Positions 14,948 to 61,372 of a DNA stretch of 64,000 bases are shown piece after piece (position 1 is the stretch's first letter; the number at the start of each line of letters is the position of its first letter). The stretch lies in NCBI GenBank assembly GCA_021776135.1, contig JAJFGL010000066.1, positions 1 to 64,000 of the forward strand. Direction: 5' to 3'. The notes under the pieces were generated by a model. That model saw only the letters and a list, made by a program, of their open reading frames with translations. It made no database searches and was not told the origin of the DNA. The DNA comes from Kiloniellaceae bacterium. GTDB taxonomy: Bacteria; Pseudomonadota; Alphaproteobacteria; Kiloniellales; J153. The position numbers and the translations under genes were made by a program.

Positions 14948-15211
14948 TTAAGAGTCATCGGCGGGCTGCTGGCGAATGGGTTGACCGGGCGTATTCGGCA
15001 ATTCGCGACGCGCTTTTTTGAAAGCGGTGTCGCTGCCAAGGAACGCTTCGACGATGAAGGGTACGAGGTTTCCCGGGCTTTCCCTGGAGCCGTAGGCGCG
15101 TTCATAGACACGCGCGTAATCGACCAGCGCATCATGAACGTCCGGGGGAAACGTACAGGTCAGTTTGACCGGCGTTGTTTTGGGTAGAGGCCCGAGTTTC
15201 AGTTTCGTCAT
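14948..15211 (-). CDS. DUF2274 family protein
   Basis: An 87-residue protein, MTKLKLGPLPKTTPVKLTCTFPPDVHDALVDYARVYERAYG, typical of the DUF2274 proteins that follow trbI in conjugation operons. The N-terminal strand-helix pattern resembles a ribbon-helix-helix fold. It overlaps the end of trbI by 4 bases (ATGA). Function unknown; context implies regulation or an accessory role in transfer. Confidence 0.7.
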   Translation of the reverse strand: MTKLKLGPLPKTTPVKLTCTFPPDVHDALVDYARVYERAYGSRESPGNLVPFIVEAFLGSDTAFKKARRELPNTPGQPIRQQPADDS

Positions 15212-27954: not shown

Positions 27955-28512
27955 TTAGTAAGGTTTTGCGGCCTTTAGTGTCTCACCGCGCAGCGACTTT
28001 GCCAGATAGATATCGTCGTTAAATTCCAGCACCAATTTGAACACCTCGTTGGCGTCGGATTTCTTGAGACCGAATTGCCGCGTCAGCTGGCGAATGAAAT
28101 GCCGCAGCATCTCGGAATCGCCGGATGTCAGCGGTCCCAATTCTTTAACTTTTTCCTGGAAGCGGCGTATCATGTCCGCTGGCAGGTTAGGCCCGTAAAT
28201 GAAGTAACGCAGCCAAGCCAGAAACTGCGGATGGCGCAACGTTTGCGCATAAGAGTTACCATTGCGCCTGTATTGCTCACTCACAGATGGCCCACGACCG
28301 GTTGCATATTCATCCTTCGCGAAAACGTCCTTGCGAATTGTAGGAATGGCATTGCGTTGGAGCAGAATTTCCGTGAGTTGGGCCGCGCGTTCGCAGTTGT
28401 CCCAGGTGGCTTGCCCATTGTCGACGTTGAGCGCTTCTAGCTCAATGTTCGCCAGACGCGCTTGTTCCTCTGGCGTCAGATCGATTTTTAAAATATCTTC
28501 TTCAATCATCAT
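27955..28512 (-). CDS. 185-residue partner of the SMC-S24 ATPase, unknown family
   Basis: An acidic, largely helical protein with no recognised domain. Its start overlaps the stop of the large ATPase gene by 4 bases (ATGA), so the two are translationally coupled and probably made in fixed proportion. It is the last gene of the five-gene run that starts at 37.1 kb. Possible roles are effector, inhibitor or adaptor of the ATPase; nothing in the sequence decides between them. Confidence 0.65.
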   Translation of the reverse strand: MMIEEDILKIDLTPEEQARLANIELEALNVDNGQATWDNCERAAQLTEILLQRNAIPTIRKDVFAKDEYATGRGPSVSEQYRRNGNSYAQTLRHPQFLAWLRYFIYGPNLPADMIRRFQEKVKELGPLTSGDSEMLRHFIRQLTRQFGLKKSDANEVFKLVLEFNDDIYLAKSLRGETLKAAKPY

Positions 28513-45877: not shown

Positions 45878-46272
45878 TCCGGCCGCCGCCGTTTTTCCGC
45901 CTCAAGCCAAGCCTGGGCCTGCAACAGCGCGTCCCTGTCGAAAGTGATTTCGCCGCATGACCGCGCCGCCTGCGCATAAACGGAAATCGGGAAATCGGCG
46001 GTGAAATTCAAATCCCGCTCGATTCCAAGCGCGCCGAGAACCACAACGCTCTCAAGCTCTGTGAGACTGACATAGCCGAGTTCCGGACATTGGAAACCGA
46101 GGTCACAGAGGCCAAAGAGGATATCCGGCTGATTTGCCACCATTTCGGTGATCAACCATGTGGCGGGGCCAATGGGGTTGAAAAATTTGACAACGGGAAA
46201 CGGGTCTTTGCCTTCGCCCAGATGCCAGTTGGCGAGCAGTTTTTCGCGGATATCGTCGGTGATCAGTTTCAT
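45874..46272 (-). CDS. DUF2958 family protein
   Basis: 132 residues with KLLANWHLGEGKDPFPVVKFFNPIGPATWLITEM and GLCDLGFQCPELGYVSLTELESV, the signature of DUF2958. These proteins are carried next to ArdC/ParB-like genes on many mobile elements; role unknown. The ATG at 46272 overlaps the ardC stop by 4 bases. Confidence 0.8.
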   Translation of the reverse strand: MKLITDDIREKLLANWHLGEGKDPFPVVKFFNPIGPATWLITEMVANQPDILFGLCDLGFQCPELGYVSLTELESVVVLGALGIERDLNFTADFPISVYAQAARSCGEITFDRDALLQAQAWLEAEKRRRPE

Positions 46273-47192
46273 GCCGCCGCCCTTTCTTCCTCGTTGCTCC
46301 GGTGGGAGGCGAGAAGGAAATCGGCGGCCTTGCTTGCAAGGCTCGCGGCGCGGAAGATGGCCTTGTTGTCTTCTTTCAGCACTTCCAGCCATGCGCCGAG
46401 ATAATCCGTATGCCGCACGGTCGGGGTGATTGAGAGCGCGGCGCAGACAAAGGCGCTGGTCATTTCCGCGACAAGTTCCTCGCGGGCATATGCCTTTGTG
46501 CCGGTCGATGTTTTCAGGTCACGATCCAGCCGCGTTTCATGCCCGGTCCAGTGGCCAAGCTCGTGAAAGCAGGTGCGGTAATAATTGATTTGCTCATGAA
46601 AAGCGGGTTGCGGCGGCACCTGAATGAAGTCCTGCGCCGGTACGTAAAAGGCGCGATTGCCGCCGATACGAAAATCCGCGCCGGTGTTTTTGATCAGGGC
46701 TTCGGCGCAGGCGTTTTGCTCGCATTCGGGCAGTTTCGGCGCGTCCGCATAAAGATGGTCCGGCAGGCCGTCGCATTGTTCGATATTGAAAACCCGGTAG
46801 CGTTTGAGGAAATGCACCTGTGCCGGTTCGCGGCCTTCCTCGCGGGCGGCCTTGCGTTCCTCTTTGGGGATATAGCTGTCGGCGTAGACAACTGTCGTGG
46901 AGCGCTCCCCCTTGCGGACATTGCCGCCAAGCTTTTGCGCCTGTTTGTAGGTCAGCCATGTCTGCGAGGCGAAACCATGTTCAAACAGCGCGCCCCACAA
47001 CAGCAGGATATTGATACCGGAATAGCATTTTCCGCTGTCCGCATTGGCGGGAAGTCCTGCCGGTACGCTTGGACTGCCCCATGGCTGCACCCACGGGACC
47101 CGGCCCTGTTCCAGTTCGCGAATAATCCGGTTGGTCACTTCCTCATAAACCGTTTGCCGTTCGCCCGGTGTCTGTTTGTCTTGATTGGCCAT
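46269..47192 (-). CDS. ardC: ArdC-like antirestriction protein
   Basis: About 307 residues. The N-terminal ssDNA-binding domain (VTNRIIRELEQGRVPWVQPWG, YSGINILLLW, TYKQAQKLGGNVRKGE) is followed by a zincin-type domain with the metal site TCFHELGHWTGHE and the downstream AREELVAEMTSAF. ArdC protects incoming single-stranded element DNA and can counter host restriction. The ATG at 47192 has GGAGG upstream; longer frames are noise. Confidence 0.9.
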   Translation of the reverse strand: MANQDKQTPGERQTVYEEVTNRIIRELEQGRVPWVQPWGSPSVPAGLPANADSGKCYSGINILLLWGALFEHGFASQTWLTYKQAQKLGGNVRKGERSTTVVYADSYIPKEERKAAREEGREPAQVHFLKRYRVFNIEQCDGLPDHLYADAPKLPECEQNACAEALIKNTGADFRIGGNRAFYVPAQDFIQVPPQPAFHEQINYYRTCFHELGHWTGHETRLDRDLKTSTGTKAYAREELVAEMTSAFVCAALSITPTVRHTDYLGAWLEVLKEDNKAIFRAASLASKAADFLLASHRSNEEERAAA

Positions 47193-47941
47193 CGCCGCAT
47201 CCTCCGTCCGCTTCGCCGTTTTTCCCCCCGAAAGGGGGGCGGTGAAGAGGCCCGGCAGCCCCAAGTGACAGGGCGGGACGCAACTGTTTTGGTAGGGCGA
47301 AAAAAATGACCCGGACGGATCAAAAGCCAAAGCGGTTGCGGCCCGACCGCTTGGGGCTATAAGGGCCGACCGCCCCCCGCCGGAGGGAAAAACAGACAAA
47401 CAAAGTCGCCGCCGCAGGCGGCGGCCTTATGCCGAAGCTTTGCTTCGGTCTTGCGCAAGGGGTGGACGCCCCAAGGGCCGGGACCGCGTGAGCGGGCCTG
47501 GTTCACGACGGCCCGACGCCCTGCCGGCAGGGGGGAGCGCTCGAAAAATTTCGGGGAAATGACCGGTGCGCCAAGGCTTTTTCCGAGACTGGGGGCTTGA
47601 GTATTGCGGTGCGAAATAACAGATTGAAGCCCGCCTTTTCGAGTCCAGGGGGACTTAGGAATGTCAGTAAAAATCGCGTGATTTGGCGTGTAATCGCATT
47701 TCCAATAGTTGCAGAAACTTTTTATCTCGCGTAAATAGGTAGAAATCAGAGTCGTACTCAGACTTGACTACGCTGCCTATGGGCGGGACCGCTGCGGCGG
47801 ATCGGGATGAATGTGCACCGCTGTTACCGGCACATGGTCCGACACTTAAGATATATCAGGGAGGATGCATAAGAGGCGCGTATCGCGCCTCCGCCGCCAT
47901 TCACGGATGGGGAGGTATGTCAAGAGTTCGAGAGTCGGAAA
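47193..47941. other. 749-base gene-free stretch with hairpins
   Basis: No credible gene is seen. Two adjacent perfect hairpins lie at 47408-47425 (GCCGCCGC/GCGGCGGC) and 47432-47448 (CCGAAGC/GCTTCGG), and several GC-rich palindromic fragments follow to 47530. A further perfect hairpin, GAGGCGCG/CGCGCCTC, is at 47873-47891, just upstream of the GntR gene. The stretch marks the change from element genes to the lasso cluster and could contain an element end or a replication/transfer origin. Confidence 0.45.
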
Positions 47942-48631
47942 ATGGATGAAATATATACGCAAATAAAAGCGAAAATTATTAATGAACAGCGGGATGCACA
48001 GCGGCGCATTCGGCCCGAGGAGCTGGCGGACGAATTGCGGGTCAGCACGACGCCAGTGCGGGACGCCCTGAAGCTTCTTGCCCGGGAAAAACTGGTCACG
48101 AATATTCCGAATACGGGTTTTTTTACAAAACCCGTATCCGAAAGAGAAATGCGGGACCTGTTTAATCTACAATGGCTTCTGATCGACGGGTCGTTGCGGG
48201 TAATCGCCCGCAATGACGGTCTGTTGACGTTGAACGCATCGGGAATTCTCAGCCACGGAAGGCGTCAACTGCGAAACTGTCCACCGCAATCGGCAGCGGA
48301 GCTGGCGGACGCGTTTTTCCTTCAGATTGTCCGCCAGTCGGGCAATGCCGATGCGGTGGATGTTATCAGGAACATCAATGAACGGAGCTGTTATTTCAGG
48401 CTGAAGGAGTGCGCGTTTGATGCGGATGCTGTGGACGATCTGGCGTCAATTTGTGAAACATATTATCGGCGGGAAACAGAGGCTTTGCGATCAGAGTATC
48501 GGAACTATCATGACAGACGCCTGAAACGTTTACCGCGCCTGATCAGTAAAATCAGGCATTCCGGGGACGCCGGGCCTTATGCGGATTCTTCTTTATCCGA
48601 AATAGACTGGCCCGGAGGAGGCGTGTCATGA
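47942..48631 (+). CDS. GntR-family transcriptional regulator of the lasso cluster
   Basis: 229 residues. IYTQIKAKIINEQRDAQRRIRPEELADELRVSTTPVRDALKLLAREKLVTNIPNTGFFTKPVSE is a clear GntR winged helix, followed by a helical FadR-like ligand domain. The stop overlaps the ABC transporter start by 4 bases, so it probably controls the export and biosynthesis genes. Most known lasso clusters I recall do not carry a GntR gene here. Confidence 0.85.
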   Translation: MDEIYTQIKAKIINEQRDAQRRIRPEELADELRVSTTPVRDALKLLAREKLVTNIPNTGFFTKPVSEREMRDLFNLQWLLIDGSLRVIARNDGLLTLNASGILSHGRRQLRNCPPQSAAELADAFFLQIVRQSGNADAVDVIRNINERSCYFRLKECAFDADAVDDLASICETYYRRETEALRSEYRNYHDRRLKRLPRLISKIRHSGDAGPYADSSLSEIDWPGGGVS

Positions 48632-50493
48632 CGGATTCCAGCGCGTCATACGGGATCGGTCACGCGGTATGTGCGGCATTGCGAACCGGCCGGACACATG
48701 CCGACACATTTGTCAGGAAACGGCTCTTTCTGGCATTGACGCTGGCGCTGGTGTCGGGCGCGCTGGCGGCGGGCGCGCCGGTCGCGCTTAAATATGCGAT
48801 CGATGCGCTCGGGACCGACGGTTTTCAGGTTTTCAGTCCGGGCGCTTTTACCGACCTTGACGTCTCAGTGGGCGTGAGCGGACTGTTGCTGATTTATCTG
48901 GCGGCGTTCTGGGTGTCCCGGTCGTTTGGGGAACTGCGGTGGTTTTTGTTCGGCGCGGCGGACCGGCGTTTGCATCGTAATCTCAGCCGCCACTTGCTTG
49001 ACCATGTGCTCAAGCTCCCGATGCTGTTTCATGCTGATCGGAAATCGGGCGGGTTGAACCAAACCCTGGCCCAGGGCCTCATGGGCTACAGCGTTCTTGT
49101 CAATCATCTGGTCTTCACCCTGCTGCCGGTGTTTGTGGAAGTCGTCATAATCGTGACCGTTCTCTCGTTCTTTCAGGTCGAATTTATCGCGATCTTTATT
49201 GCGGCGGTTGCCGCCTATGCAGTTGTTTTCACCATGGGCGTTATGCAGATTATCGCGCCCAGCCGTGCGGTCGCGAACAGCCAGGTGGATGCCTATGCAA
49301 GTCTCACGGATATTCTTATCAATGTGGAAACCGTAAAATATTTCACGGCGGAACAACGGGTCGGTGACCGTTATGACGGAACGCTGGCGCGGGCCGAGAG
49401 CGACTGGAAGGAATTTTACCGGCGCAAGTCGCTGAACGGTCTTCTGGTCGCCCTTGTCTTTGTCGCCACATTGGGGGCGGCGCTGTTCATGGGCGCACGC
49501 CATGTCATGGCGGGGTCGATGACGATCGGCGATTTTGTGTTGATCAACGCCTATATGCTCCAGATTGTTCGGCCAATGGAAACACTTGGGGCGGGCATGC
49601 GCGATATTGTGCACGGGGTCGCCTTTATCGAGAAGATGACGGAGCTGCTGGATCAAAAAACCGAAAACACCGGAAGGGCGACCGTGACTTCTGCAAATGA
49701 CTGCGTCCCGACGGACGAAACCGGATCACGGACCGGGTTCGGGGAACTGACATTCGACAAAGTGACGTTTTCCTATGCGCGCGGGAGGCGGGTCCTGAGC
49801 GACATCAGCTTCACCATTTCGCCCGGCAAAACGGTTGCCATTGTCGGTGAAAGCGGCGCGGGAAAATCCTCGCTTATGCGTCTCTTGATGCGGCTGTATG
49901 ATCCGGAAAACGGCGATATCCGTCTGAACGGCAATTTGACGCGGGACATGACGGTTGACGCATTGCGTCGCGCCGTCGCCGTGGTCCCACAGGATACGGC
50001 GTTATTCAATGATACGATTGCCGGGAATATTGCTCTTGGAAATGAAGATAATAATCCGGCGGATATCGAGCGCGTCGCGCGGCTTGCTCATCTTCATGAC
50101 ATGATTATGCATACACCGGATGGTTATCAGACGCTGGTCGGCGAACGCGGGATGAAACTTTCCGGTGGCGAGAAACAGCGGGTGGCGATTGCCCGTGCGC
50201 TTTTGAAAGAAGCGCAGGTCATTGTGCTTGATGAGGCCACATCCGCTCTGGACACCGGAACAGAGCAGGAGATTCTTGACGATCTGTTCGAGGTGTCGAA
50301 AGGCGTCACCACATTGATGATCGCCCACCGCCTTTCCACAGTGAGGCATGCCGATGAAATCCTGGTCCTGCATGAGGGCGGGATCGGGGAGCGCGGCAAT
50401 CATGAATGGTTGATCAGGCAAAAAGGACTTTATGCATCCATGTGGGCCAGACAACAGAATAAAAACGAGAAAAGAGAAAGCGCCGCGTGGTAA
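48628..50493 (+). CDS. ATM1-like ABC exporter (lasso peptide D protein)
   Basis: A 621-residue half-transporter. Six membrane helices lie within residues 25-300, with LTDILINVETVKYF and GDFVLINAYMLQIVRPME, both typical of the ATM1/HMT1 branch. The ATPase has Walker A GESGAGKSS near 410, signature LSGGEKQRVAIARALL and Walker B VIVLDEATSALD. In lasso clusters this gene exports the mature peptide and gives self-immunity. Here it precedes the B and C genes, not the usual last position. Confidence 0.85.
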   Translation: MTDSSASYGIGHAVCAALRTGRTHADTFVRKRLFLALTLALVSGALAAGAPVALKYAIDALGTDGFQVFSPGAFTDLDVSVGVSGLLLIYLAAFWVSRSFGELRWFLFGAADRRLHRNLSRHLLDHVLKLPMLFHADRKSGGLNQTLAQGLMGYSVLVNHLVFTLLPVFVEVVIIVTVLSFFQVEFIAIFIAAVAAYAVVFTMGVMQIIAPSRAVANSQVDAYASLTDILINVETVKYFTAEQRVGDRYDGTLARAESDWKEFYRRKSLNGLLVALVFVATLGAALFMGARHVMAGSMTIGDFVLINAYMLQIVRPMETLGAGMRDIVHGVAFIEKMTELLDQKTENTGRATVTSANDCVPTDETGSRTGFGELTFDKVTFSYARGRRVLSDISFTISPGKTVAIVGESGAGKSSLMRLLMRLYDPENGDIRLNGNLTRDMTVDALRRAVAVVPQDTALFNDTIAGNIALGNEDNNPADIERVARLAHLHDMIMHTPDGYQTLVGERGMKLSGGEKQRVAIARALLKEAQVIVLDEATSALDTGTEQEILDDLFEVSKGVTTLMIAHRLSTVRHADEILVLHEGGIGERGNHEWLIRQKGLYASMWARQQNKNEKRESAAW

Positions 50494-50571
50494 ATAGAAG
50501 GTTTTGAATGACGGGGCAGTCGTAATCGTTCGCTGCGCCCGGCGCTGTGATTCGATCAAAATTACCGATTA

Positions 50572-50591
50572 AATAATCATTTTATAAAATC
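50572..50591. promoter_or_regulatory. 20-base element upstream of the B gene (copy 1)
   Basis: AATAATCATTTTATAAAATC here is identical to 53389-53408 upstream of the precursor gene. It includes a -10-like TATAAA. Two identical copies ahead of two genes of one pathway suggest a shared promoter or operator. Confidence 0.6.
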
Positions 50592-50599
50592 ACAAACGG

Positions 50600-50613
50600 A
50601 ACCCGATCGGGTT
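50600..50613. promoter_or_regulatory. Perfect palindrome upstream of the B gene
   Basis: AACCCGATCGGGTT is a perfect 14-base palindrome 48 bases before the B start and just after the 20-base element. Followed by TATTATT, it could also act as a short terminator for the ABC gene. Operator for the GntR protein is the other reading. Confidence 0.45.
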
Positions 50614-50660
50614 TATTATTGGCTTCAGACTGTGTTCATCACTTGAATGCCTGGAGTGCA

Positions 50661-51395
50661 ATGACAACGAAAGCGACATCACCTGAATATTTTCTGACAC
50701 CGCATACATTCATGTGTGTGACGGCGGGTTCCTTTGTTGTTCTTGACCTGCACAACGATAATTACTCGTATCTTGAGAAAAAATATACGGCGCCGGTCTC
50801 CAAATTGCTGGGATTGCCGGATGCTGCGCCGAGTACCGGCGGAGCGCCGGCGGCCTCGAACCCCGAAATCACAGACCTTGTGCAAAACCTGCTAAAGATG
50901 GATTTGCTGACGACTTATCCGGACAAGGGGAAAAAAGCTGCGTTCCTGTCTCAACCCGAGGCGCCGAGGGAAATGCCGGGCTATCTCCACATGCCAAAAA
51001 TTCGCGCCGGGCATATTTTCCGTTTCTTCAAGGCATTGATCGTCACCAGGTTCATGTTGCGCTTCCGGTCGATGGAACAGATCGTGGCCCGCGTAAAAAT
51101 TCGCAAGGAACGCCATCGTGCGAAACGCGCCGTTGAGACCGACGCGGAGCGGATCAACAGGCTGGTCGAGATATACAAGATCCTCAAACCCCTCTTTGTG
51201 ACCGTGAAGGACAATTGCCTGTTCGACACATTTTTCCTGATCGAATTTTTGGCGCCTTATCGTATTTTTCCGGACGCCATGTTCGGTGTCCGGCTCAATG
51301 AATTTTACGCCCATGCCTGGGTCCAGGACGGCAACATGATTTACGATGATTTCATTGACAGGACCTGTCTGAACCAGCCGATTATGAGGGTATAA
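50661..51395 (+). CDS. Lasso peptide B protein: fused leader-binding (B1) and transglutaminase-like protease (B2)
   Basis: About 244 residues. The first 90 resemble the PqqD-like B1/RRE fold (YFLTPHTFMCVTAGSFVVLDLHNDNYSYL), which binds the precursor leader. The C-terminal half is the B2 protease: VKDNCLFDTFFLIEFL gives the catalytic Cys near 186, FYAHAWVQDG the His near 218, with an Asp shortly after. It removes the leader before cyclisation. The ATG at 50661 has GGAG upstream; an earlier in-frame start lacks support. Its stop overlaps the C gene by one base. Confidence 0.87.
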   Translation: MTTKATSPEYFLTPHTFMCVTAGSFVVLDLHNDNYSYLEKKYTAPVSKLLGLPDAAPSTGGAPAASNPEITDLVQNLLKMDLLTTYPDKGKKAAFLSQPEAPREMPGYLHMPKIRAGHIFRFFKALIVTRFMLRFRSMEQIVARVKIRKERHRAKRAVETDAERINRLVEIYKILKPLFVTVKDNCLFDTFFLIEFLAPYRIFPDAMFGVRLNEFYAHAWVQDGNMIYDDFIDRTCLNQPIMRV

Positions 51396-53260
51396 TGATG
51401 TATCGCTTTATAGCGCTGTTATGGAATGACGCCGACGGCGACGCGGCCATGGCGGCGCGATTCATCGCATCGCAGTTGCCCGAAACCTCGTCTCATCAAT
51501 GGCGGAAATCCTATGCCACCGACGGTCTCACGGTGTTTGACGCCGGTGCGCAGGCCGGGCGGATGCAGACCTGCCGCCTCCAAAATGATAGTGGCGTGGT
51601 GCTTGGCAAGGTGTTTCGAAATGCCCCGAATGGTGAATATGTTTCGCAAACCGATGATCTTGACGATATTCAGTCCCGGAAAATCCTGCGCACCCAAACC
51701 GGTCATTTGGTTACACATTATTGGGGGCGCTATGTCGCCTTTCTGAATGATCGCGCAACCGGCGTGAAATACATCATGCGCGACCCATCGGGCGCATTTC
51801 CCTGCTTTTTCACGCAGCACAAGGGCGTCGAGATTTATTTTTCCGATATGGCCGACGTGGCAAATTTCGATTTCCTTCCGTTCACGGCAAACCATAATTA
51901 TCTCGCCACGAATATTCTGCTGCCGCAATTTCAAAAGGTCCATACAGGGCTGAACGAGGTGAGTGAAGTTCTCCCGGCAGAGTGTGTGGAGATTATGCCA
52001 TCAGGCCGGACAAGCCGCTTTGTGTGGAATCCGACGAAAATTGCCGAAACGGACGTGGTGGAAAACCCGGAAGAAGCGGCAATGCTACTGAGAAAAACGG
52101 TCAAGAATACTGTGGCCGCCTTGGCCGGTTGTTATGACAGTGTTGTCCATAATCTTGGTGGCATCGATTCTTCCATTGTCCTGTCTGCGCTCGCCGCAAC
52201 GCCAAAGCGGCCGGAGATTACCTGCATCAATTTCTATACTGAATCGCCGGCTGGCGAGGAGCGGTTTTATAGTCGGCAGGTGGCCGTCAAATATGGAGTG
52301 CCATTGGTCGAAAAAAAACTGGATTATCGTAAAGCTGATTTATCGCGCGTTTTTCATTCCAACAAACTGGCAAACCCGCTTGGGTTTTTTGATTGCCTCG
52401 GATTGACCAACCACCTGCTGAACCTGGCCAGGGAGAAAAACGCGCAAGCGCTGTTTTACGGCGTCGGCGGCGACAATGTTTTTTACCAGCCGCCATTCAG
52501 TCTTGGCGCACAGGACTATATTCACTATCACGGCTTCGGCAGGCACGCGCCAAGAGTGATGATGGAAGCCGCGCGCTATGGCCGTCAGTCTATCGCAAAG
52601 ACATTTCGCGCCATGGTGCAGGAGCGTTTTTCTCCCGCACCATGTTACCGGGCTGTGCGCGATCTGATGAATGGAGGCGTCAATCATACTCTGATCAATC
52701 CGGCGTTTTTGAGCGGTCACGGCGGACAAAAATCGCTACACCCTTTGCTCATTCCAGACGATGATATGGCAAAGGGTAAATATCTTCACATATTAATGTG
52801 TGCGCTGTTTTCCATTGAACATTATGACCATTGGGACCCGTCCTATTTCGCTGAACGCATTCATGTGTACCTGACGCAGCCGGTCATTGAGGCATGTCTG
52901 CGCATCCCGACCTGGGTATTGACCTATAATGGCGTTGAGCGCGGCCTCGCGCGCAAGGCGTTCGAACACGAATTGCCGCAAGATGTGGTAATGCGATTCA
53001 GCAAAAGTACGCCTGTTGAGTTTTACAATGACATCTACGCGCACAACACCGACTTGCTGCGAGAGATCTTGCTCGATGGGATTCTGGTTCAGGAAAAAAT
53101 ACTGTTGCGCGATGTGCTTGAGAGAACATTGAGTCAAGAAGATGTCTTTTTTGCCGTTTCGCCTTTGGAAATCCTAGGGCATTTCGCCACAGAGGTATGG
53201 TTGCGCGGATGGCGGGATCGTCCCGTGGCGGACGCGACTAGTCTGAAGGTTGCAGTGTGA
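51395..53260 (+). CDS. Lasso peptide C protein (asparagine-synthetase-like macrolactam cyclase)
   Basis: A 621-residue AsnB homologue. The N-terminal glutaminase-like half lacks the Cys2 nucleophile (starts MMYRF), as in lasso cyclases. The synthetase half has the ATP loop NLGGIDSSIVLS near 250-260 and later FYGVGGDNVFYQPPF. It adenylates the ring Asp/Glu side chain and joins it to Gly1. The start is coupled to the B gene by TAATG. The ATP loop has Asn-Leu-Gly-Gly in place of the usual Ser-Gly-Gly, a mild oddity. Confidence 0.87.
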   Translation: MMYRFIALLWNDADGDAAMAARFIASQLPETSSHQWRKSYATDGLTVFDAGAQAGRMQTCRLQNDSGVVLGKVFRNAPNGEYVSQTDDLDDIQSRKILRTQTGHLVTHYWGRYVAFLNDRATGVKYIMRDPSGAFPCFFTQHKGVEIYFSDMADVANFDFLPFTANHNYLATNILLPQFQKVHTGLNEVSEVLPAECVEIMPSGRTSRFVWNPTKIAETDVVENPEEAAMLLRKTVKNTVAALAGCYDSVVHNLGGIDSSIVLSALAATPKRPEITCINFYTESPAGEERFYSRQVAVKYGVPLVEKKLDYRKADLSRVFHSNKLANPLGFFDCLGLTNHLLNLAREKNAQALFYGVGGDNVFYQPPFSLGAQDYIHYHGFGRHAPRVMMEAARYGRQSIAKTFRAMVQERFSPAPCYRAVRDLMNGGVNHTLINPAFLSGHGGQKSLHPLLIPDDDMAKGKYLHILMCALFSIEHYDHWDPSYFAERIHVYLTQPVIEACLRIPTWVLTYNGVERGLARKAFEHELPQDVVMRFSKSTPVEFYNDIYAHNTDLLREILLDGILVQEKILLRDVLERTLSQEDVFFAVSPLEILGHFATEVWLRGWRDRPVADATSLKVAV

Positions 53261-53340
53261 GTGTCCGCTTTCGATTAAATCGTCGGCAATCAAAATAATA
53301 ATACACAAGATAAATTGTGAAAAAAAGATTATTTTAAATA

Positions 53341-53357
53341 GATCAACAGTGTTGATC
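53341..53357. promoter_or_regulatory. 17-base palindrome upstream of the precursor gene
   Basis: GATCAACAGTGTTGATC has perfect 8-base arms around a central G. It sits about 130 bases before the precursor ATG, 31 bases ahead of the repeated 20-base element, and is a plausible operator. Confidence 0.5.
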
Positions 53358-53388
53358 CGCGCATTTCTGTAACTAAATTTTTTGATAT

Positions 53389-53408
53389 AATAATCATTTT
53401 ATAAAATC
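53389..53408. promoter_or_regulatory. 20-base element upstream of the precursor gene (copy 2)
   Basis: Identical to 50572-50591. It lies about 80 bases before the precursor ATG in an AT-rich control region and includes TATAAA, so it may be the promoter core for the precursor transcript. Confidence 0.6.
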
Positions 53409-53486
53409 CCTTATCGCACATAATTCAGATATAATAAAAGATACCGGAATAACCCGGTGCACACTTCAAAAAGAAAGGATGTTGCC

Positions 53487-53573
53487 ATGACTATTCTTGG
53501 AAAAGTATCAAAAAGCACAAAAGGAGCCCCGATTGTCGGTACTCCCGACGGCTTCTTGATGCGTCCACAATAA
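53487..53573 (+). CDS. Lasso peptide precursor (A gene)
   Basis: A 28-residue peptide. AAAGGA lies 7 bases before the ATG. The leader MTILGKVSKSTK ends with the conserved penultimate Thr (T-2) in an LGxxSxxTK context known from astexin/caulonodin leaders. The predicted core is GAPIVGTPDGFLMRPQ: Gly1 and Asp9 would close a 9-residue ring, leaving a 7-residue loop and tail. It lies between the C gene and the isopeptidase gene. The leader is short; an in-frame GTG at 53457 would add ten residues but has a poor ribosome site. Placement after C, rather than before it, is unusual. Confidence 0.85.
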   Translation: MTILGKVSKSTKGAPIVGTPDGFLMRPQ

Positions 53574-53585
53574 GGGTGGCCTGTT

Positions 53586-53613
53586 CATGTGCAGCGGCGT
53601 GCCGCTGCACATG
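53586..53613. terminator. Strong hairpin after the precursor gene
   Basis: CATGTGCAGCGGC and GCCGCTGCACATG pair perfectly around a minimal loop, 12 bases past the precursor stop and between two convergent genes. A short T-rich stretch (ATTCATTTT) follows. It probably terminates transcription from the plus strand and may do so from both. Confidence 0.75.
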
Positions 53614-53663
53614 ATTCATTTTCCGATAGTAGTATATTTCATTACCTTTCCGTGCGCCTCATG

Positions 53664-55832
53664 TTAATTCCGCATGGCACGCCAGCGGGCATATTGTTTG
53701 GCTTTAGCCGGGTCAGGGTCTTCCTCGTCTTTAAGCCAGAACCGGAACCAGTCGAGGTTTCGCATCGCTGATTCCCTACGCAGGCGAGGAATGGTTATTC
53801 CATGCCCGGTTTTTGGATAAGCAATATATTCAGTCGGCATGCCCGCATTTTGCGCTGCTTTTGAATACCCGAGCATGCTGACGGCTGCGGATTGCACCCC
53901 TGCTTCGAACAGCACGGCGGTATTAAGACCCTTAAAATACAACTCTGGGGAGAGTTCTAGGTAACGCGAAGCGTCTTCATAGAGTCCGGGGCCAAAATAG
54001 ATATCGTGCACTTCTCTATTCACTTCCCCAGACATTAAATTATGGATGGTCACAAAATTTCCGACACCTTCTGCGAAAGACGCTGCCCGAAATGAACCGT
54101 TCCGGGTCATGGCTAAAGGGGCAAGCCAGGCCCCGTGACTTTGACCTGATATTGCCAGCCGATCAGGATCAGCGATTCCTTTTTCAACCAGATAATCAAT
54201 GCCCGTCAGAATATCATCGACGGGTTCGCCATCAATTTTTGCAGGATTGGCATATTTTGTGCCGAAAGACATCATTCCGCGATAATTGACAATAAAGACG
54301 GCCATGCCGTTTGTCGCATAGGCCTCAAACGGATAAGGCCAGTAGTTAAAAAAGAACGCAAATTCGTCTGGCATCGTCACCCCCGGGCCGCCATTGATAT
54401 AGGTTATCATCGGCCAGGGCTTATCGAAATGTGTTGCGCCGACTGGTTCCATCAACCAGCCATGAACGTCGGTGCCATCCTTACTTTTCCAAATGACTTC
54501 TTTCGCCACCGGGACGGTTTTTTCCGCAATGGCTTCATTGAAGTGGGTCAGTTGGTAAGACCCGCGTCCTTTACGCCAGATATGAATTTCCGGCGGGTGG
54601 GTCAGGCTTTCATTGACATAGACCGTCGCCTGAAAGTCATCATTAAACTGAAAAAACGATGTACTGCCTTTCACATCCTTGACGATATTGGACTTCGCAA
54701 ACCTCGATACTGTCATCTGATAAAGCGACCGGACAGCGTTGACCATTCCGGCCACATAAATTCGTGATCCATCAAGTGGGATGAATGTATTTTGGCTGGA
54801 TGTTTCTATTGGCTGCCATGTCTGTTCGCTTAGATTTTTGTTTTGATAATCGGATGCATCGACCAATGACCATTCACCATTTCGCGTCCACATATCTTTT
54901 TCGTTAATGCGTTGAACAAAAATCTTGTTTTGGTCCGGCACCCATTTTCCGTCTGTGTAATATGTTCCACTTTGTCCATCTGACGGGGGGAGCGCTGTAC
55001 CAAAAACACGGAATTTCTTGTCCCTGACATCATATATTCCGAGGCTGGTTCGAAGGTCGGATGCGATTTCTGTAGGAACATCATCGGCAATATAGGTAAC
55101 GGATAACTTTTCCGTGTCCGTAGACCAGTGAAAATCTTTTATATCGCCGCGTACTTTCGCCTCAGAAGCAGCCGGTCCTGCTGATACGATCCATAGCGCG
55201 TTTAGCCGTTGAGAAGCCTGGTCAGACCACGAGGTCCAGTTCGGATTGATGAAGTCATAAAGGCTGGCGGTATCGGCATTGATCAAAATACCCCTGTCGC
55301 CATTCTGCATTTGGTCAAATAGCGACGGTCCCATATCCGGTATTTCCTGCGTCAGATAGGCAAGAGATACACCGTCGGACGCAAAGCGAAAGCGTGTAAC
55401 CGGATGCTCACCATCCGTATGTTGTTGCAAGGTTTTGGTAGAAGAATCATAGGAATAAATCTGAGTAACGCCATCACGGGCAGAGAGAAAGGCCAGCTTA
55501 TGCGTACCCGGTATCCAGGCAAATTCGCGACCATCCTGAATTTCGTCTATCAGAAACGGCTCAGCATCCGGCTTTGTCGGGCTGATATATACATGGCGCA
55601 GATTTTTGTTTTCCGTCAGTGATTGCGATTCAACCACATAGGTGATCCATCCGCCATCTGATGACAAAGCGAGCTGCGAAAAGCGTTTTAGCTCAAAATA
55701 GTCGTCAATGGTGAAGTGTGTTGTCTCTGGCTGCTCGTCGGCAAATGCGGCCAATGCAGATAAGGAAAGCAATACCAGAAGGACAAGAAACCGGAATGGC
55801 GTAGTGCATTTTTGAAAAGTCGGCGTGTACAT
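53664..55832 (-). CDS. Lasso peptide isopeptidase (S9 prolyl-oligopeptidase family)
   Basis: A 722-residue protein with a signal peptide (FLVLLVLLSLSALAAFA) and a beta-propeller followed by an alpha/beta hydrolase domain. The nucleophile motif is ISGQSHGAWLAPLA (Ser near 563), and TGHGITIP gives the His near 677; this matches AtxE-type isopeptidases. These open the macrolactam ring of imported lasso peptides in the periplasm. It follows the TonB receptor gene by 12 bases and is convergent with the precursor gene, which supports the role. Confidence 0.87.
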   Translation of the reverse strand: MYTPTFQKCTTPFRFLVLLVLLSLSALAAFADEQPETTHFTIDDYFELKRFSQLALSSDGGWITYVVESQSLTENKNLRHVYISPTKPDAEPFLIDEIQDGREFAWIPGTHKLAFLSARDGVTQIYSYDSSTKTLQQHTDGEHPVTRFRFASDGVSLAYLTQEIPDMGPSLFDQMQNGDRGILINADTASLYDFINPNWTSWSDQASQRLNALWIVSAGPAASEAKVRGDIKDFHWSTDTEKLSVTYIADDVPTEIASDLRTSLGIYDVRDKKFRVFGTALPPSDGQSGTYYTDGKWVPDQNKIFVQRINEKDMWTRNGEWSLVDASDYQNKNLSEQTWQPIETSSQNTFIPLDGSRIYVAGMVNAVRSLYQMTVSRFAKSNIVKDVKGSTSFFQFNDDFQATVYVNESLTHPPEIHIWRKGRGSYQLTHFNEAIAEKTVPVAKEVIWKSKDGTDVHGWLMEPVGATHFDKPWPMITYINGGPGVTMPDEFAFFFNYWPYPFEAYATNGMAVFIVNYRGMMSFGTKYANPAKIDGEPVDDILTGIDYLVEKGIADPDRLAISGQSHGAWLAPLAMTRNGSFRAASFAEGVGNFVTIHNLMSGEVNREVHDIYFGPGLYEDASRYLELSPELYFKGLNTAVLFEAGVQSAAVSMLGYSKAAQNAGMPTEYIAYPKTGHGITIPRLRRESAMRNLDWFRFWLKDEEDPDPAKAKQYARWRAMRN

Positions 55833-55844
55833 TTGTTCGATCCT

Positions 55845-58800
55845 TCAAAATGACTTGGTCAGGTTGAAGGAGAGAAATCGTCCGAGCGGACTGAAATTCT
55901 CAGGATCGAAAGCGATACCGTTGAAATTGTTGACAAAAGGCGGGTTGTCGTCAAACAGATTGCGAGCGTTAAAAGAAAACCTCGTGTCATTCAACCCGAT
56001 GCCCTGCCAACGATTTCCGGTGGCGTAAGCCAATGTCAGATCGATTGTTGTCCAGCTTTTTATTTTGCGTTCCGGGGTGCTGATATTGTCCGCGCTGCTA
56101 CCCGTGAAGTTCAGGAAGGCGGTCGCGGAAAACCCCTTCTGGTTGGTCCAGCTCACACTATTCCGCATGCGAAAGTCGGTCGGATTGCCGACAGTATCGA
56201 GAATTTTTGTAACGGGAGCGGTAGGACCGAAAGCCTCTTTGAAGGCAAGAATATACGTGCCACCGACATCGAAGCTGAAGGTGCCCCAATGCTCTGTCGT
56301 CAGTTCGTAGACGATATTGAAATCCAGACCGTCCGTCTTGGTGATCCCGGCATTGATCGGACGTAAATCAATAATAGCGCCGACGGGCGTTGTACGACAC
56401 GGGCTTCCAAGATCAAAAAAGGTTCCCTCGGCGCAGGCTTCATCAATCTGCGCCTGAGTGGGATTGCGGATGATTGCCGAAGCAAATCGCTCTTCCTGCT
56501 CCAGAATCGACAAACCAGCGCTTAGTGCACTGACAATACGTTTTTCGAATTTAACATTGTAGTAGCCGATATTGAATGTGAGGTCCGGTAGAGATGATGG
56601 TGTGAAATCAAAGCCCAGAGTCCAGCTATCCGCCGTCTCGCTTTCCAAATTCCCGTTATTTCCGTTGAGAATAATGCTGGATGTCAGGCCTGTTGACGAA
56701 GAAGAATCGGGGATTGGAAAAATAAAGGTTTGGCTCTCGGTCGTGTCCAGCTCCACCAGATCAGGCGCTCTGAATGATGTTCCAAAAGTGCCCCGAATGT
56801 TCAGGCCCTTAACAGGACTCCATAAAAGTCCGAACTTTGGGTTTGTGGTGCTACCTACATCGTCAAAATCCTCAAAGCGAACTGATGCGGTAAAGATCAG
56901 CTTTTGCAGTCCTGGTCGGCTGTTTGCCCCGTCAAAAAGCGGCACATAGGCTTCCCCAAATATTGCAAAGGCATCTCGCCCAAAATCTGTTTCCCTTATT
57001 CCAAAAGGGCCATTATCGCTAAAGGAATCGAGAGAGAAGGAATCAAAGTTGGCTCCAACAGCAATTTTTAGGGCACCAGCGGGCAGTTGAAAAAGTGATC
57101 CGTCCGCAGTCATATTACCGGACCAGACTTCCGACTTCCCATTGGCTGGATTTTCGAACACAATGGAGTTTACGGTATCCGGGTTCTGCTTGAATGAGCC
57201 GTCACCAAACGGATTAAATGCGGTCGCAGGGTCCGGGTCAGCCAAGGCAACAGCTAGAGATGCAGGATCAATATTTTCTATAGTGGTTCTTCTGCGTTCA
57301 CTGCTATAAGATCCATAGGCTTGCCCCTGCCAGTCCCCCCACAGCGTGGCTTTACCGCCGAAAACACCATTAAAGGTTCTTGTATCGCCCCCAAACCTAC
57401 GCTCGGCGAAATCTCGTGCTGAATTAAAGCTGACACGAACTTCAGAAGGGCCGCCAAGTGCATCGACAAAATATGGATTGGTGGACGGGACTGTGAGCGT
57501 AATCTCCTGCTGAGGGGGGCGCTGGTCAAAATCCCGGTCACTATAGCGTGCTTCGGCAAAAAGCTCTAAACTCTCTGCTACTTTCTGAAACACAGAAGCG
57601 AAGAAGCTGTGCTGTTCCTGATCCTGTAACAGGTCGCGGCCTTCGTTCCGATTGAATAGATTGATCTGTCCGGGGAGCAATTCATCAGGCGTAAGGTTTG
57701 TGCCGTCCTGTCCGTCGGGAATCGCGAACGCAACCGTCGTAAAGAAAGTCACCGGGTCGAGAATATTACCGGGTACGCTGCCCTGCGCTCCGAAATTATT
57801 CCCGCCAAACGAAGTAAGATCACTATCGCGCGCAAAGGGTTTATTCTCGGAACGCAGTCGCCCTCTGTTATAATATTCGTAGGACAATACCGCATTGCCG
57901 GGGCGATTGTTGATTTCCCAGTTTTTGCCGAATAGCTGACTGGCGCGATATTCCTGGGTGCCGCCTTCCGTGACGGTGCCGAAGCGCAGACTGGTTTCCG
58001 CGCCTTCAAAGTCATCGCGCATAATGATATTGACCACACCGCCAATAGCGTCGGAGCCATAGGTCGCCGAGGCGCCGTCCGCCAATACCTCGACCCGCTC
58101 GACCAGCGACGCTGGAATATTGGAAATGTCAACAAAGTTGCCGTCCAAACCACCCGCCGCCAATCGCCGGCCATTGACGAGGGTGAGTGTGTTGCCTGCT
58201 CCGAGGCCGCGTAAATTAATGGCCGTGCCGCCCGAAAGATTGCCTGAATTATCGGGCGATCTTGAAAACTCGCTAATGCCGCCGGCGAAGTTGTTGGTGA
58301 GACTTTGGATCACCTCCGGCAAACTGCCAAAGCCGCCGCGTTCGATATCCAGTCGATCAATAGTGACCAGGTTCGATCCGACCGATGCTTTGGTGCCCCG
58401 TATCAATGAACCGGTGACGACAATTTCATCGATTTCTTCCAGCGCGGGGTCGGCAGAGGGGATTTCGTCCTGCATGAAGGCGGCGTCCGAGCGGCTGCCG
58501 GCGGTACTTGAGGCGCGCACATTTGTTCTGTATGGGGCCGAGTCCGGTTCCAACAACGCAAGGGATACGCCGTCGCGTCTGTTATCGGGTGATGCTGAGC
58601 CATGATTTGTTCGGCGGTCACGGTTATCCCGAATGACGATAGCGCCGTTATCGATGATTTCATGGGTTAACCCGGTGCCTTCAAGGAGAAGCTCCAGGGC
58701 GCGGATTTTGTCAAATTTACCAGTGAGCGCCGGCGCCTGTACGTCCTTCAAAAGTTTGTAGGGATATGCAAGCTCGACATTTGCCTGCGCGGCGTATAGC

Positions 58801-58988
58801 TCCAGGGCAACGGACGCCGTTTGCGCGGGAATGTCGAATTGGGCGGTTTCGTCTTTTATCGGCGCATTTTGCGCCATGCCGGGGTTGGCCGTAATTGCCA
58901 ATAATGAGACGCCAAGTAACGCCGACTTAATGAATGTTCGCTTTGGACGTACCTCTCCCGTCCGTGGAATCACACCACGTTCCCGCAT
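55845..58988 (-). CDS. TonB-dependent receptor with STN domain (putative lasso peptide receptor)
   Basis: 1047 residues. A signal sequence is followed by a secretin/TonB N-terminal (STN) domain (ALELYAAQANVELAYPYKLL), a plug domain with GSLIRGTKASVGSNLV and INLRGLGAGNTLTLVNGRRL, and a long beta-barrel ending in SFNLTKSF. The STN domain is typical of transducers that signal to a FecR anti-sigma factor, present just upstream. It probably imports the lasso peptide and reports its presence. Confidence 0.88.
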   Translation of the reverse strand: MRERGVIPRTGEVRPKRTFIKSALLGVSLLAITANPGMAQNAPIKDETAQFDIPAQTASVALELYAAQANVELAYPYKLLKDVQAPALTGKFDKIRALELLLEGTGLTHEIIDNGAIVIRDNRDRRTNHGSASPDNRRDGVSLALLEPDSAPYRTNVRASSTAGSRSDAAFMQDEIPSADPALEEIDEIVVTGSLIRGTKASVGSNLVTIDRLDIERGGFGSLPEVIQSLTNNFAGGISEFSRSPDNSGNLSGGTAINLRGLGAGNTLTLVNGRRLAAGGLDGNFVDISNIPASLVERVEVLADGASATYGSDAIGGVVNIIMRDDFEGAETSLRFGTVTEGGTQEYRASQLFGKNWEINNRPGNAVLSYEYYNRGRLRSENKPFARDSDLTSFGGNNFGAQGSVPGNILDPVTFFTTVAFAIPDGQDGTNLTPDELLPGQINLFNRNEGRDLLQDQEQHSFFASVFQKVAESLELFAEARYSDRDFDQRPPQQEITLTVPSTNPYFVDALGGPSEVRVSFNSARDFAERRFGGDTRTFNGVFGGKATLWGDWQGQAYGSYSSERRRTTIENIDPASLAVALADPDPATAFNPFGDGSFKQNPDTVNSIVFENPANGKSEVWSGNMTADGSLFQLPAGALKIAVGANFDSFSLDSFSDNGPFGIRETDFGRDAFAIFGEAYVPLFDGANSRPGLQKLIFTASVRFEDFDDVGSTTNPKFGLLWSPVKGLNIRGTFGTSFRAPDLVELDTTESQTFIFPIPDSSSSTGLTSSIILNGNNGNLESETADSWTLGFDFTPSSLPDLTFNIGYYNVKFEKRIVSALSAGLSILEQEERFASAIIRNPTQAQIDEACAEGTFFDLGSPCRTTPVGAIIDLRPINAGITKTDGLDFNIVYELTTEHWGTFSFDVGGTYILAFKEAFGPTAPVTKILDTVGNPTDFRMRNSVSWTNQKGFSATAFLNFTGSSADNISTPERKIKSWTTIDLTLAYATGNRWQGIGLNDTRFSFNARNLFDDNPPFVNNFNGIAFDPENFSPLGRFLSFNLTKSF

Positions 58989-59031
58989 AACCGGTCTCCC
59001 TCTTTTTGTTGCTTTTGAATTCGACCGGTTA
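58988..59031 (-). promoter_or_regulatory. Hairpin masking the receptor start codon
   Basis: Perfect 9-base arms TAACCGGTC (58988-58996) and GACCGGTTA (59023-59031) flank a 26-base loop. In the minus-strand mRNA one arm runs into the A of the receptor ATG and the GAGGGAG ribosome site lies at the loop edge. Folding would hinder translation initiation. Confidence 0.5.
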
Positions 59032-59116
59032 GCCCAGCCAAAATTCCTTTACAGACCTAATACAGTCGCCCGTCTGAAAATCCGCCACTCGAAAAGGGCA
59101 TTTTTTTTCGGAAAAT

Positions 59117-60178
59117 TCAAAACGGGTTTTTATCCAGACGCAAAATGATGGTGTTTGAGTCCGGCCGGGAAATTATCAGGTCATATGTTTTGGCAAGCAT
59201 CGCCAATGTTTTTCCTATATCATTGATGGGGTATGTGCCGCCGACCTGGATGCCTTTGATCCTGTGATCTGCGATAACAATTTTTTTTGTCGTGTGACGG
59301 CTAATTTCCGCAACGGCATCTTCGAAGGCCTCGCCCTGAAAAATCAGCACGCCACGACGCCATGCCAGCTCTCGATTGATCCTGTTCAGGCCAACATTTT
59401 CGATGTCTGAAATGCGATTGTTCACCAAGGCGGTCTTTTGACCGGATACCACCGATACCGGCCGGCTTTCGACGGCAGTATTATTTTCATGTGGTGAGGG
59501 CATGTCGGGTGTTGGGGGTTTTGCGGCGACTTCAACCATTCCTTCCGTGACAACGACTTCCAGAACGTCATCATGAAGAGCGACATTGAATGCTGTGCCA
59601 ACCGCGCGAACCCGGCCATTATTTGTGGTTACGATAAATGGCCGATCCTTATCCGGGGTGACCATGAAATGCGCTTCACCCCGCAACAAACGGATCGTTC
59701 GCGTATCATCTGAATATTCGCTCTTGATTGCGGTGTCGGTGTTGAGTTCGACCACGGACGAATCTTCGAGCGAAACGGTCATTCTCCGGCCCACACCGGT
59801 TTCATGCGCCTGATATTCTGGCGTATATGCAAATCGCCATGACAGGGTGGAAACCGCAACAAAGAGCGTGACCGACGCTGCAATGGCGGGCCACCGGATG
59901 ATCGGGCTTTTTCTTTTTGGCGAAACCGCCTGATTCACATACTTCCGCCGCGAGCGCCGGTGTCCGGCAGGCGCTCGGGACAGTCGCAACGCATCTGATT
60001 TTCGCCATACATTTTGTAGTTCGTAAAATACGGCGCTCCGGCGTGGGTCGCCGTTCAGCCAATGTTGAAAGACCTGTTTTTCATTGTCGGAAATTTCACC
60101 TGAATCGAGGCGGATCAGCCAATAGCCGGCATCTTCTTCGATGGACCCCCGGCTCAGGAATGAAACGGTATCAGTCAT
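59117..60178 (-). CDS. FecR-like anti-sigma regulator
   Basis: About 353 residues. The cytoplasmic N-terminus (DAGYWLIRLDSGEISDNEKQVFQHWLNGDPRRSAVFYEL) is the DUF4880 sigma-binding part. One membrane helix follows (AIAASVTLFVAVSTL), then the periplasmic FecR domain (VGRRMTVSLEDSSVVELNTDTAI) and a C-terminal STN-like end (VLIFQGEAFEDAVAEISRHTTKKI). The ATG at 60178 overlaps the sigma factor stop by 8 bases. It should pass the receptor's signal to the sigma factor. Confidence 0.9.
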   Translation of the reverse strand: MTDTVSFLSRGSIEEDAGYWLIRLDSGEISDNEKQVFQHWLNGDPRRSAVFYELQNVWRKSDALRLSRAPAGHRRSRRKYVNQAVSPKRKSPIIRWPAIAASVTLFVAVSTLSWRFAYTPEYQAHETGVGRRMTVSLEDSSVVELNTDTAIKSEYSDDTRTIRLLRGEAHFMVTPDKDRPFIVTTNNGRVRAVGTAFNVALHDDVLEVVVTEGMVEVAAKPPTPDMPSPHENNTAVESRPVSVVSGQKTALVNNRISDIENVGLNRINRELAWRRGVLIFQGEAFEDAVAEISRHTTKKIVIADHRIKGIQVGGTYPINDIGKTLAMLAKTYDLIISRPDSNTIILRLDKNPF

Positions 60179-60827
60179 CACCGGCCGCCGATACATAGGA
60201 AAGCTTGCCGCCAAGCTGGTTGAAAACGCGGAGGACGCCCCTTCCAAGATGCTTTTCGACCGTGCTTTCGGCGATCTCCATCTTTGCGGCAACCTCCGCC
60301 TGCGAATATCCATAGACCTTGCGAAGGATGAAGACCTTTTTGCATTTTGGAGGCAAATTGTTCACCGCGTTACACAGCAGTCGAAACTCTTGCCTGGATA
60401 TGGCCTGCGCTTCAGCATCCGGGCTTTCATCGTGCAGACCCAACAAATCGAAATCGTCAACAACGTCTGTGGCAAGTTTCATTTTGCCCTTGCGGGCGTT
60501 AAAAGCCAGGTGCCGCGCCGTAATGTAAAGTAAGCTACGTGGTGAGCGACTTTCATCCACTTCGCTCCTGTGTATCCGTATGAAGGTTTCCTGAACGAGA
60601 TCCTCGGCGTCGGGGAGCGAGCCGACCATTGATTCCAGATAGTTCGTCAAAACTGCGCGATATCGAACGTAGAGCTTTGTCAGAATTCCGGGATGCGTCG
60701 CGCTGTTCGGATCTGCATCGCCCACCAGATTGTCCGTCAAGGCAGGATTGTCCGAACTCTTCATTTGTAAAGGGTGACGGTTTGGCCCGCCGGGGGCTGC
60801 AAAACCATCTCTTCTTGATATGGACAC
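60171..60827 (-). CDS. ECF (FecI-like) RNA polymerase sigma factor
   Basis: Up to 218 residues with region 2 (YRAVLTNYLESMVGSLPDAEDLVQETFIRIHR) and region 4 (LPPKCKKVFILRKVYGYSQAEVAAKMEIAESTVEKHLGRGVL). It drives the FecR/receptor/isopeptidase genes in response to the peptide (inference). The start is uncertain: GTG at 60827 or ATG at 60764; neither has a strong ribosome site. Confidence 0.88.
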   Translation of the reverse strand: MSISRRDGFAAPGGPNRHPLQMKSSDNPALTDNLVGDADPNSATHPGILTKLYVRYRAVLTNYLESMVGSLPDAEDLVQETFIRIHRSEVDESRSPRSLLYITARHLAFNARKGKMKLATDVVDDFDLLGLHDESPDAEAQAISRQEFRLLCNAVNNLPPKCKKVFILRKVYGYSQAEVAAKMEIAESTVEKHLGRGVLRVFNQLGGKLSYVSAAGDD

Positions 60828-60978
60828 GTTTTACCCCCGGGCAATTTTCCTCTCCCCTCGTCGCAATGTTCCGGGGCGACTGCACCCTTGTTTCGGTGTC
60901 TGGATCGCGCCAACCGGAAGTAAAACTACTGAAGTATGCGATAAGACACAAGTTATATTTCCTTTTCGGGGATAAAAG

Positions 60979-60995
60979 CTGCATTTAAAATGCAG
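60979..60995. promoter_or_regulatory. Operator-like palindrome before XRE gene 1
   Basis: CTGCATTTAAAATGCAG has perfect 8-base arms around one base and ends 2 bases before the ATG at 60998, covering the ribosome-binding position. A half-site CTGCATT recurs at 61652-61658 before the second XRE gene. Confidence 0.55.
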
Positions 60996-60997
60996 AA

Positions 60998-61372
60998 ATG
61001 AAATTGAAAAAAGCAGTAGGGCTTCGCATCAGGGATGCCCGTAATCGTGCGGGCCTGACCCAGCAATCGCTTGCCGAAAAGATCGAGCGATCCGTCGAGG
61101 CTATTCGCTCCATGGAACGCGGCGCGACCGCGCCGGGTTTTGAAAGCCTCGAACGCCTGAGCAAGACCTTTGGCGTGCCGGTGCGGAATTTTTTTGATTT
61201 TGGCGGCGAAGACGACACTATCAGCGCCAGGCGTTTACACCTGATGGACACGGTGCTGGATGCGATCCCGAAACTGGACGATGATGGTCTGGAACTGGCG
61301 GCGAAAATGCTTGATACGCTGGTTCAGCAACGCCACGCCGCAGATGGCGAGTCCGGTTCTTCGTCAGCCTAG
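60998..61372 (+). CDS. XRE-family regulator 1
   Basis: 124 residues. The N-terminal HTH reads GLRIRDARNRAGLTQQSLAEKIERSVEAIRSMERGATAPGFESLERLSKTFGVPVRNFFDF; a short helical C-terminus follows (LDDDGLELAAKMLDTL). It is closely related to the protein encoded at 61671-61994 in domain order and motifs, and their control regions are also similar. Target genes are not evident; autoregulation through the palindrome is likely. Confidence 0.82.
   Translation: MKLKKAVGLRIRDARNRAGLTQQSLAEKIERSVEAIRSMERGATAPGFESLERLSKTFGVPVRNFFDFGGEDDTISARRLHLMDTVLDAIPKLDDDGLELAAKMLDTLVQQRHAADGESGSSSA

Follow-up and report, generated by a model that had tools for sequence, protein, structure and literature searches.

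The astexin, sphingopyxin, caulosegnin and benenodin clusters encode a GntR regulator, an RRE-fused B protein, a cyclase C, a convergent isopeptidase, a TonB receptor and FecI/FecR, and the leaders of their precursors end in xLGxxSxxT(K/R) followed by Gly1. In these clusters A normally precedes B. They have no ABC transporter (PMC9266682). According to the same 2022 review, isopeptidase clusters lack ABC transporters with the sole exception of the rubrinodin cluster, which it calls an evolutionary intermediate (PMC9266682). Microcin J25 (McjA/B/C/D) combines a fused B with an ABC transporter but has no isopeptidase, and its leader of 37 residues functions mostly through the last eight: a McjA leader truncated to about that length still yields some product, while residues −12 to −10 have been modelled as a strand laid on the McjB RRE (PMC11420955). 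The B1 proteins TbiB1 and TfuB1 read a YxxPxL motif at positions −17 to −12 (PMC10368454). Lasso leaders are generally 20–40 residues long, according to a 2026 review (PMC13352647).

The window, a 64,000-nucleotide stretch of a Kiloniellaceae contig, contains a cluster in the order GntR-ABC transporter (D)-B-C-A / isopeptidase (E)-TonB receptor-FecR-FecI, with no frameshift in any gene:

47942–48631, forward strand: GntR-family regulator (PF00392, 9.7e-12; conserved in relatives)
48628–50493, forward strand: ABC transporter D (profile match; conserved in relatives)
50661–51395, forward strand: B protein with an N-terminal RRE and a C-terminal cysteine peptidase (NF033537 above cut-off, PF13471)
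51395–53260, forward strand: C, asparagine synthetase-like lasso cyclase (PF00733, 5.2e-15)
53487–53573, forward strand: lasso precursor gene A, leader MTILGKVSKSTK, core GAPIVGTPDGFLMRPQ (open reading frame, relatives, leader pattern and codon signature)
53664–55832, reverse strand: prolyl-oligopeptidase-like lasso isopeptidase E (profile matches, alignment with AtxE2)
55845–58988, reverse strand: TonB-dependent receptor (profile match)
59117–60313, reverse strand: FecR-like anti-sigma factor (profile match)
60171–60827, reverse strand: FecI-like ECF sigma factor (profile match; frame overlaps that of FecR)

This layout shares with the astexin-like clusters the GntR regulator, RRE-fused B, C, convergent isopeptidase, TonB receptor and FecI/FecR, as well as the leader end and Gly1, but differs in that the leader is about half as long, A stands after C rather than before B, and D is present. 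The rubrinodin cluster, likened here by its description, matches the window in ABC transporter, isopeptidase, TonB receptor and FecI/FecR (PMC9266682). With microcin J25 the window shares the fused B and the ABC transporter, and its leader is naturally close to the McjA truncation length. Several features expected of a lasso cluster are present (B peptidase with RRE, asparagine synthetase-like C, a precursor with Thr(−2) and, within core positions 7–9, the acid Asp9), as are genes typical of the isopeptidase type (isopeptidase, TonB receptor, FecI/FecR, GntR). Taken as a whole, the evidence is best explained if the open reading frame is precursor A of an isopeptidase-type lasso cluster giving a 16-residue Gly1-Asp9 lasso peptide, a reading that we consider very probable. 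The original prediction had assigned this lasso identity and placement, both of which stand; it was silent on the unusual cyclase and isopeptidase, on A standing after C rather than before B, and on the pairing of an ABC transporter with an isopeptidase.

Gene A consists of 28 codons and a stop, begins with ATG and translates to MTILGKVSKSTKGAPIVGTPDGFLMRPQ. Its start lies 226 bases beyond the stop of C (53260), and 90 bases separate its end from that of the convergent isopeptidase gene (53664). The ribosome binding site lies upstream:

53475–53479, forward strand: AAGGA; in relatives, the A genes are preceded by a conserved GAAAGGA

The 28-residue frame, its good ribosome site, and Thr(−2), Gly1 and Asp9 are thus as originally described. 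Common gene callers have a default minimum of 90 bases, and A with its stop spans 87, so that it is probably short enough to escape their listings; no NCBIfam or Pfam model matches it. A degenerate leader pattern, LGxxVxxxxTKG, has a single match in the whole genome of 3.96 Mb, namely A, and none in the reversed control; in the genomes of three relatives it matches exactly twice each, always inside the lasso cluster. Across seven leaders, the ratio of synonymous to nonsynonymous codon differences is 78:67 in the predicted frame, against 10:119 and 15:113 when the alternative frames are read. The A frame is thus translated and under selection.

Relatives were found by a cyclase scan of species genomes. 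The closest cyclases, from a Sphingomonadales MAG (L008) and a Marinicaulis MAG (L009), are 64–65% identical to window C, and that of a Kiloniellales MAG (L010) is 32% identical. Both L008 and L009 repeat the window gene order from GntR through the TonB receptor, and each has two small genes between C and E of the form MIDLG(K/R)VSExTK|G..., namely MIDLGRVSEVTK|GPMLPPLDDSQTFRM and MIDLGRVSEATK|GVNLPPLDDGITHRF in L008, and MIDLGKVSEATK|GPLDGPGVDLNALRMQ and MIDLGKVSEETK|GVIDEPSTDFNGLKPE in L009. This conserved gene order and these sister precursors support the proposed Gly1/Asp9 ring and the location of A between C and the isopeptidase gene. Of six further precursors at the nearest loci, five share Asp9 (both from L008, both from L009, and the L038 core). 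As judged by comparison, gene A, its leader length and the cluster are conserved.

Two alternatives concern the identity and start of the gene. The frame might be a chance open reading frame, with the true precursor elsewhere; this is excluded for practical purposes by the unique leader pattern in the genome, its confinement to the cluster in relatives and the codon signature in the predicted frame, together with conservation. Near the window cluster we found neither a second precursor, such as the pairs in L008 and L009, nor any other leader-like frame, which speaks against another small frame as the true precursor. Alternatively, translation might begin at the GTG at 53457, an option that had been flagged for checking: the frame is open, has 38 codons, and would give a 22-residue leader of usual length. 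However, that frame takes in the ribosome site belonging to the ATG, and the GTG overlaps a small ACCGG hairpin. Relatives have no counterpart of this start, and in two of them the leader cannot be extended because a stop codon lies four codons upstream of the ATG. We rejected the GTG start, which is highly improbable, in favor of the ATG at 53487.

With A so placed, its leader is only 12 residues long, below the usual 20–40, a range that describes a usual trait rather than a strict criterion; leaders of classical relatives range from 23 to 28 residues, with 26 in the plasmid cluster of Asticcacaulis excentricus M6. The same leader form in the L008 and L009 sister genes, with synonymous variation, shows that the short leader is real and not a start error. 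Leaders of 12–13 residues occur in 19 of the alphaproteobacterial lasso loci examined (the window, L008, L009 and 16 others; about 26 genes), with the approximate consensus M-[ILVTF]-x-[LI]-G-x-[VAI]-x-x-x-T-x. These sequence comparisons indicate that the 12-residue leader is a trait of a family or lineage: it was rightly called unusually short, but is conserved across the whole precursor group. Positions −17 to −12, read as YxxPxL by TbiB1 and TfuB1, fall almost wholly outside such a leader. The window leader would keep the segment −12 to −10 for the RRE strand, plus Thr(−2), and may therefore be just long enough.

Precursors of this group have 27–30 codons, at or under usual gene-calling limits, and are therefore probably under-counted; the group supplies natural minimal leaders for engineering. 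In a literature search that covered few subscription papers, we found no description of the short-leader group or of the cyclase loop change described below. We provisionally rate as new here the core, the natural minimal leader, the displaced A, the rebuilt cyclase loop, and the combination of exporter and isopeptidase in one cluster. At six loci (L071, L074, L078, L079, L085, L040), short-leader precursors have predicted cores with Ile, Val, Phe or Ala in first position, for example MIDLGKASEVTK|FIVGVPGEADNTLSLS at L079; in all of them Thr(−2) was taken to mark the point of cleavage. Observed first residues of lasso peptides are limited to Gly, Cys, Ser and Ala, plus the Asn of the study that lists them (PMC12670498). 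At L078 (5513–6604), a tandem array of four short-leader precursors lies behind two cyclase genes; the cores resemble one another and are long (26–33 residues).

The enzymes expected to process A show both ordinary and altered features. In B, the lasso B2 model NF033537 matches the C-terminal part above its cut-off, and Cys186 and His218 are conserved. The N-terminal part has the RRE fold of TbiB1 and TfuB1 (5v1u, 6jx3): the predicted B structure (mean pLDDT 61) matches best the TbiB1 RRE with leader (5v1u; probability 1.00, E 0.04), and probabilities against the two RREs are 0.99–1.00 with E-values of only 0.04–0.07. NCBIfam lasso cyclase models match window C far below cut-off, and an AlphaFold model of C built from four sequences had a mean pLDDT of 36 and was discarded. 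The PP-loop of C reads LGGIDSS and is one residue short, whereas cyclases and asparagine synthetases usually have SGGxDSS; an intact SGGxDS loop is a usual cyclase feature and is not known as a formal requirement. The PP-loop Ser is absent in 17 of 39 compared cyclases, window included, and in the same 17, Ser, Leu, Met or Phe replaces the Gly after a conserved Lys (K537-S in the window), while all 22 SGG cyclases, and likewise that of A. excentricus M6, carry Lys-Gly. Lys537 probably corresponds to the catalytic Lys of asparagine synthetase and beta-lactam synthetase. Since the compared cyclases are related, the 17:22 split does not represent 39 independent events: in a tree built without the loop and Lys-Gly columns, the deletion requires one to three changes, all inside one 21-member set. 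The paired loss of Ser and Gly in these sequences suggests adaptation rather than decay, and opens the lasso enzyme that is least understood to direct tests.

In 13 loci A follows C, and 12 of these have the cyclase deletion (exception L048). Two loci with the deletion (L083, L084) nevertheless have A before B and long leaders, and four (L010, L040, L075, L080) combine short leaders with an intact loop. The short leader, the displaced A and the rebuilt loop are therefore associated in this region of the tree, without forming a single indivisible trait. One tentative and rather doubtful proposal is that an alphaproteobacterial branch has evolved 12-residue leaders together with a rebuilt cyclase ATP site that alters core activation and permits cores starting with Ile, Val or Phe.

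Isopeptidase E is altered as well. It matches NF033523 (lasso_peptidase) at 1.7e-39, under the model cut-off, and in alignment with AtxE2 its Ser and His match, while the triad Asp is Val in the window, Ala in L008 and Ser in L009. The Glu of LFEAG, three residues before the triad Asp position in the alignment, is conserved in the nearest relatives; the L039 isopeptidase has LFESG at this site, and more distant isopeptidases keep the Asp. Because isopeptidase triads are given as Ser-His-Glu/Asp (PMC9266682), this Glu may serve as the triad acid of E, a candidate role that rests on alignment. An ABC transporter and an isopeptidase occur together in at least 11 clusters (window, L008, L009, L010, L039, L040, L071, L076, L079, L080, L086), which bear on the open question of what purpose isopeptidase-type lasso peptides serve. 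In one genome, about 8 kb separate two divergent lasso clusters (L038 and L039), only one of which has its own ABC transporter.

These enzyme changes raise two further alternatives. The precursor could be genuine and the remodelled cyclase could make a non-classical product, with another or unthreaded ring or another activation chemistry, as might be expected from 17 cyclases that share the PP-loop deletion and the lost Gly after the conserved Lys and from those of their cores that start with Ile, Val or Phe. Against this, isopeptidase, RRE, peptidase and transporter are all retained, the window Gly1/Asp9 spacing is ordinary, and intact-loop relatives lie in the same tree region; we regard it as improbable. 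The other possibility is a decaying cluster that yields no product, with the C ATP loop and the E triad Asp lost (LGGIDSS for SGGxDSS; EAGVQ where AtxE2 has SADEE). However, separate genomes retain the same changes in genes that are open and conserved, at 42–65% identity, the loop change co-varies with the second active-site change, and the cluster is free of frameshifts, making decay very unlikely.

The preferred reading thus remains a functional cluster with a classical Gly1-Asp9 product. Judging from the families named above, the peptide would be cleaved, cyclized and threaded, then exported, taken up again and linearized, as follows. The first residues of the 12-residue leader (−12 to −10) would dock on the RRE of B as a fourth strand, and the peptidase half of B would cleave after Thr(−2)-Lys(−1). 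C would then adenylate Asp9 and join it to Gly1, forming a 9-residue ring around the tail, with a predicted 16-residue lasso peptide of monoisotopic M 1636.840 and [M+H]+ 1637.847 (computed). Transporter D would export the peptide, the TonB receptor would re-import it, alone or with cargo, with FecI/FecR signaling, and isopeptidase E would linearize it. The short leader would be a lineage trait, cut to about the minimum needed by RRE and peptidase.

A may be transcribed separately from B-C and is probably co-controlled with them through a shared AT-rich element, perhaps by the GntR protein. The putative control elements are:

53389–53407, forward strand: AT-rich element AATAATCATTTTATAAAAT, 98 bases before A
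50572–50590, forward strand: exact second copy of AATAATCATTTTATAAAAT, 89 bases before B
53443–53458, forward strand: small hairpin ACCGG-AATAAC-CCGGT in the 5′ region of A, with similar ones in L008 and L009
53585–53614, forward strand: 13-bp hairpin after A, with equivalents carrying GTGCAGC/GCTGCAC in L008 and GTGCAG/CTGCAC in L009

Even when up to 2 mismatches are allowed, the AT-rich element has no further copy in the genome beyond these two, and the pair has 18 identical positions where shuffled controls reach 14/18. In relatives, a shared element upstream of B and A had no clear support; AT-rich elements in L008 and L009 resemble that of the window weakly at best. The hairpin 3′ of A is strong, with z-scores of −3.7 in the window, −6.0 in L008 and −2.6 in L009, but lacks a T run. 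Several A genes have a small CCGGAAU-like hairpin in their 5′ region; its folding scores alone are not significant. An Rfam scan of 46000–61000 gave zero matches.

Neither the cyclase search nor the leader pattern found relatives on viral contigs, and a plasmid collection held distant cyclases only (25–30% identity to window C), from annotated lasso clusters. Upstream of the cluster, positions 15208–47399 encode a conjugation module with TrbI, TrbL, a TrbE/VirB4-like protein, a TraG coupling protein, DUF3363, ParB and the anti-restriction protein ArdC. The mobile region also contains open reading frames of 1130 and 1292 amino acids (8883–12275 and 28509–32387) with no Pfam matches at 1e-8. From its gene content, the 79 kb contig is probably a conjugative plasmid or integrative element that carries the lasso cluster as cargo, which would explain the patchy spread of such clusters over orders.
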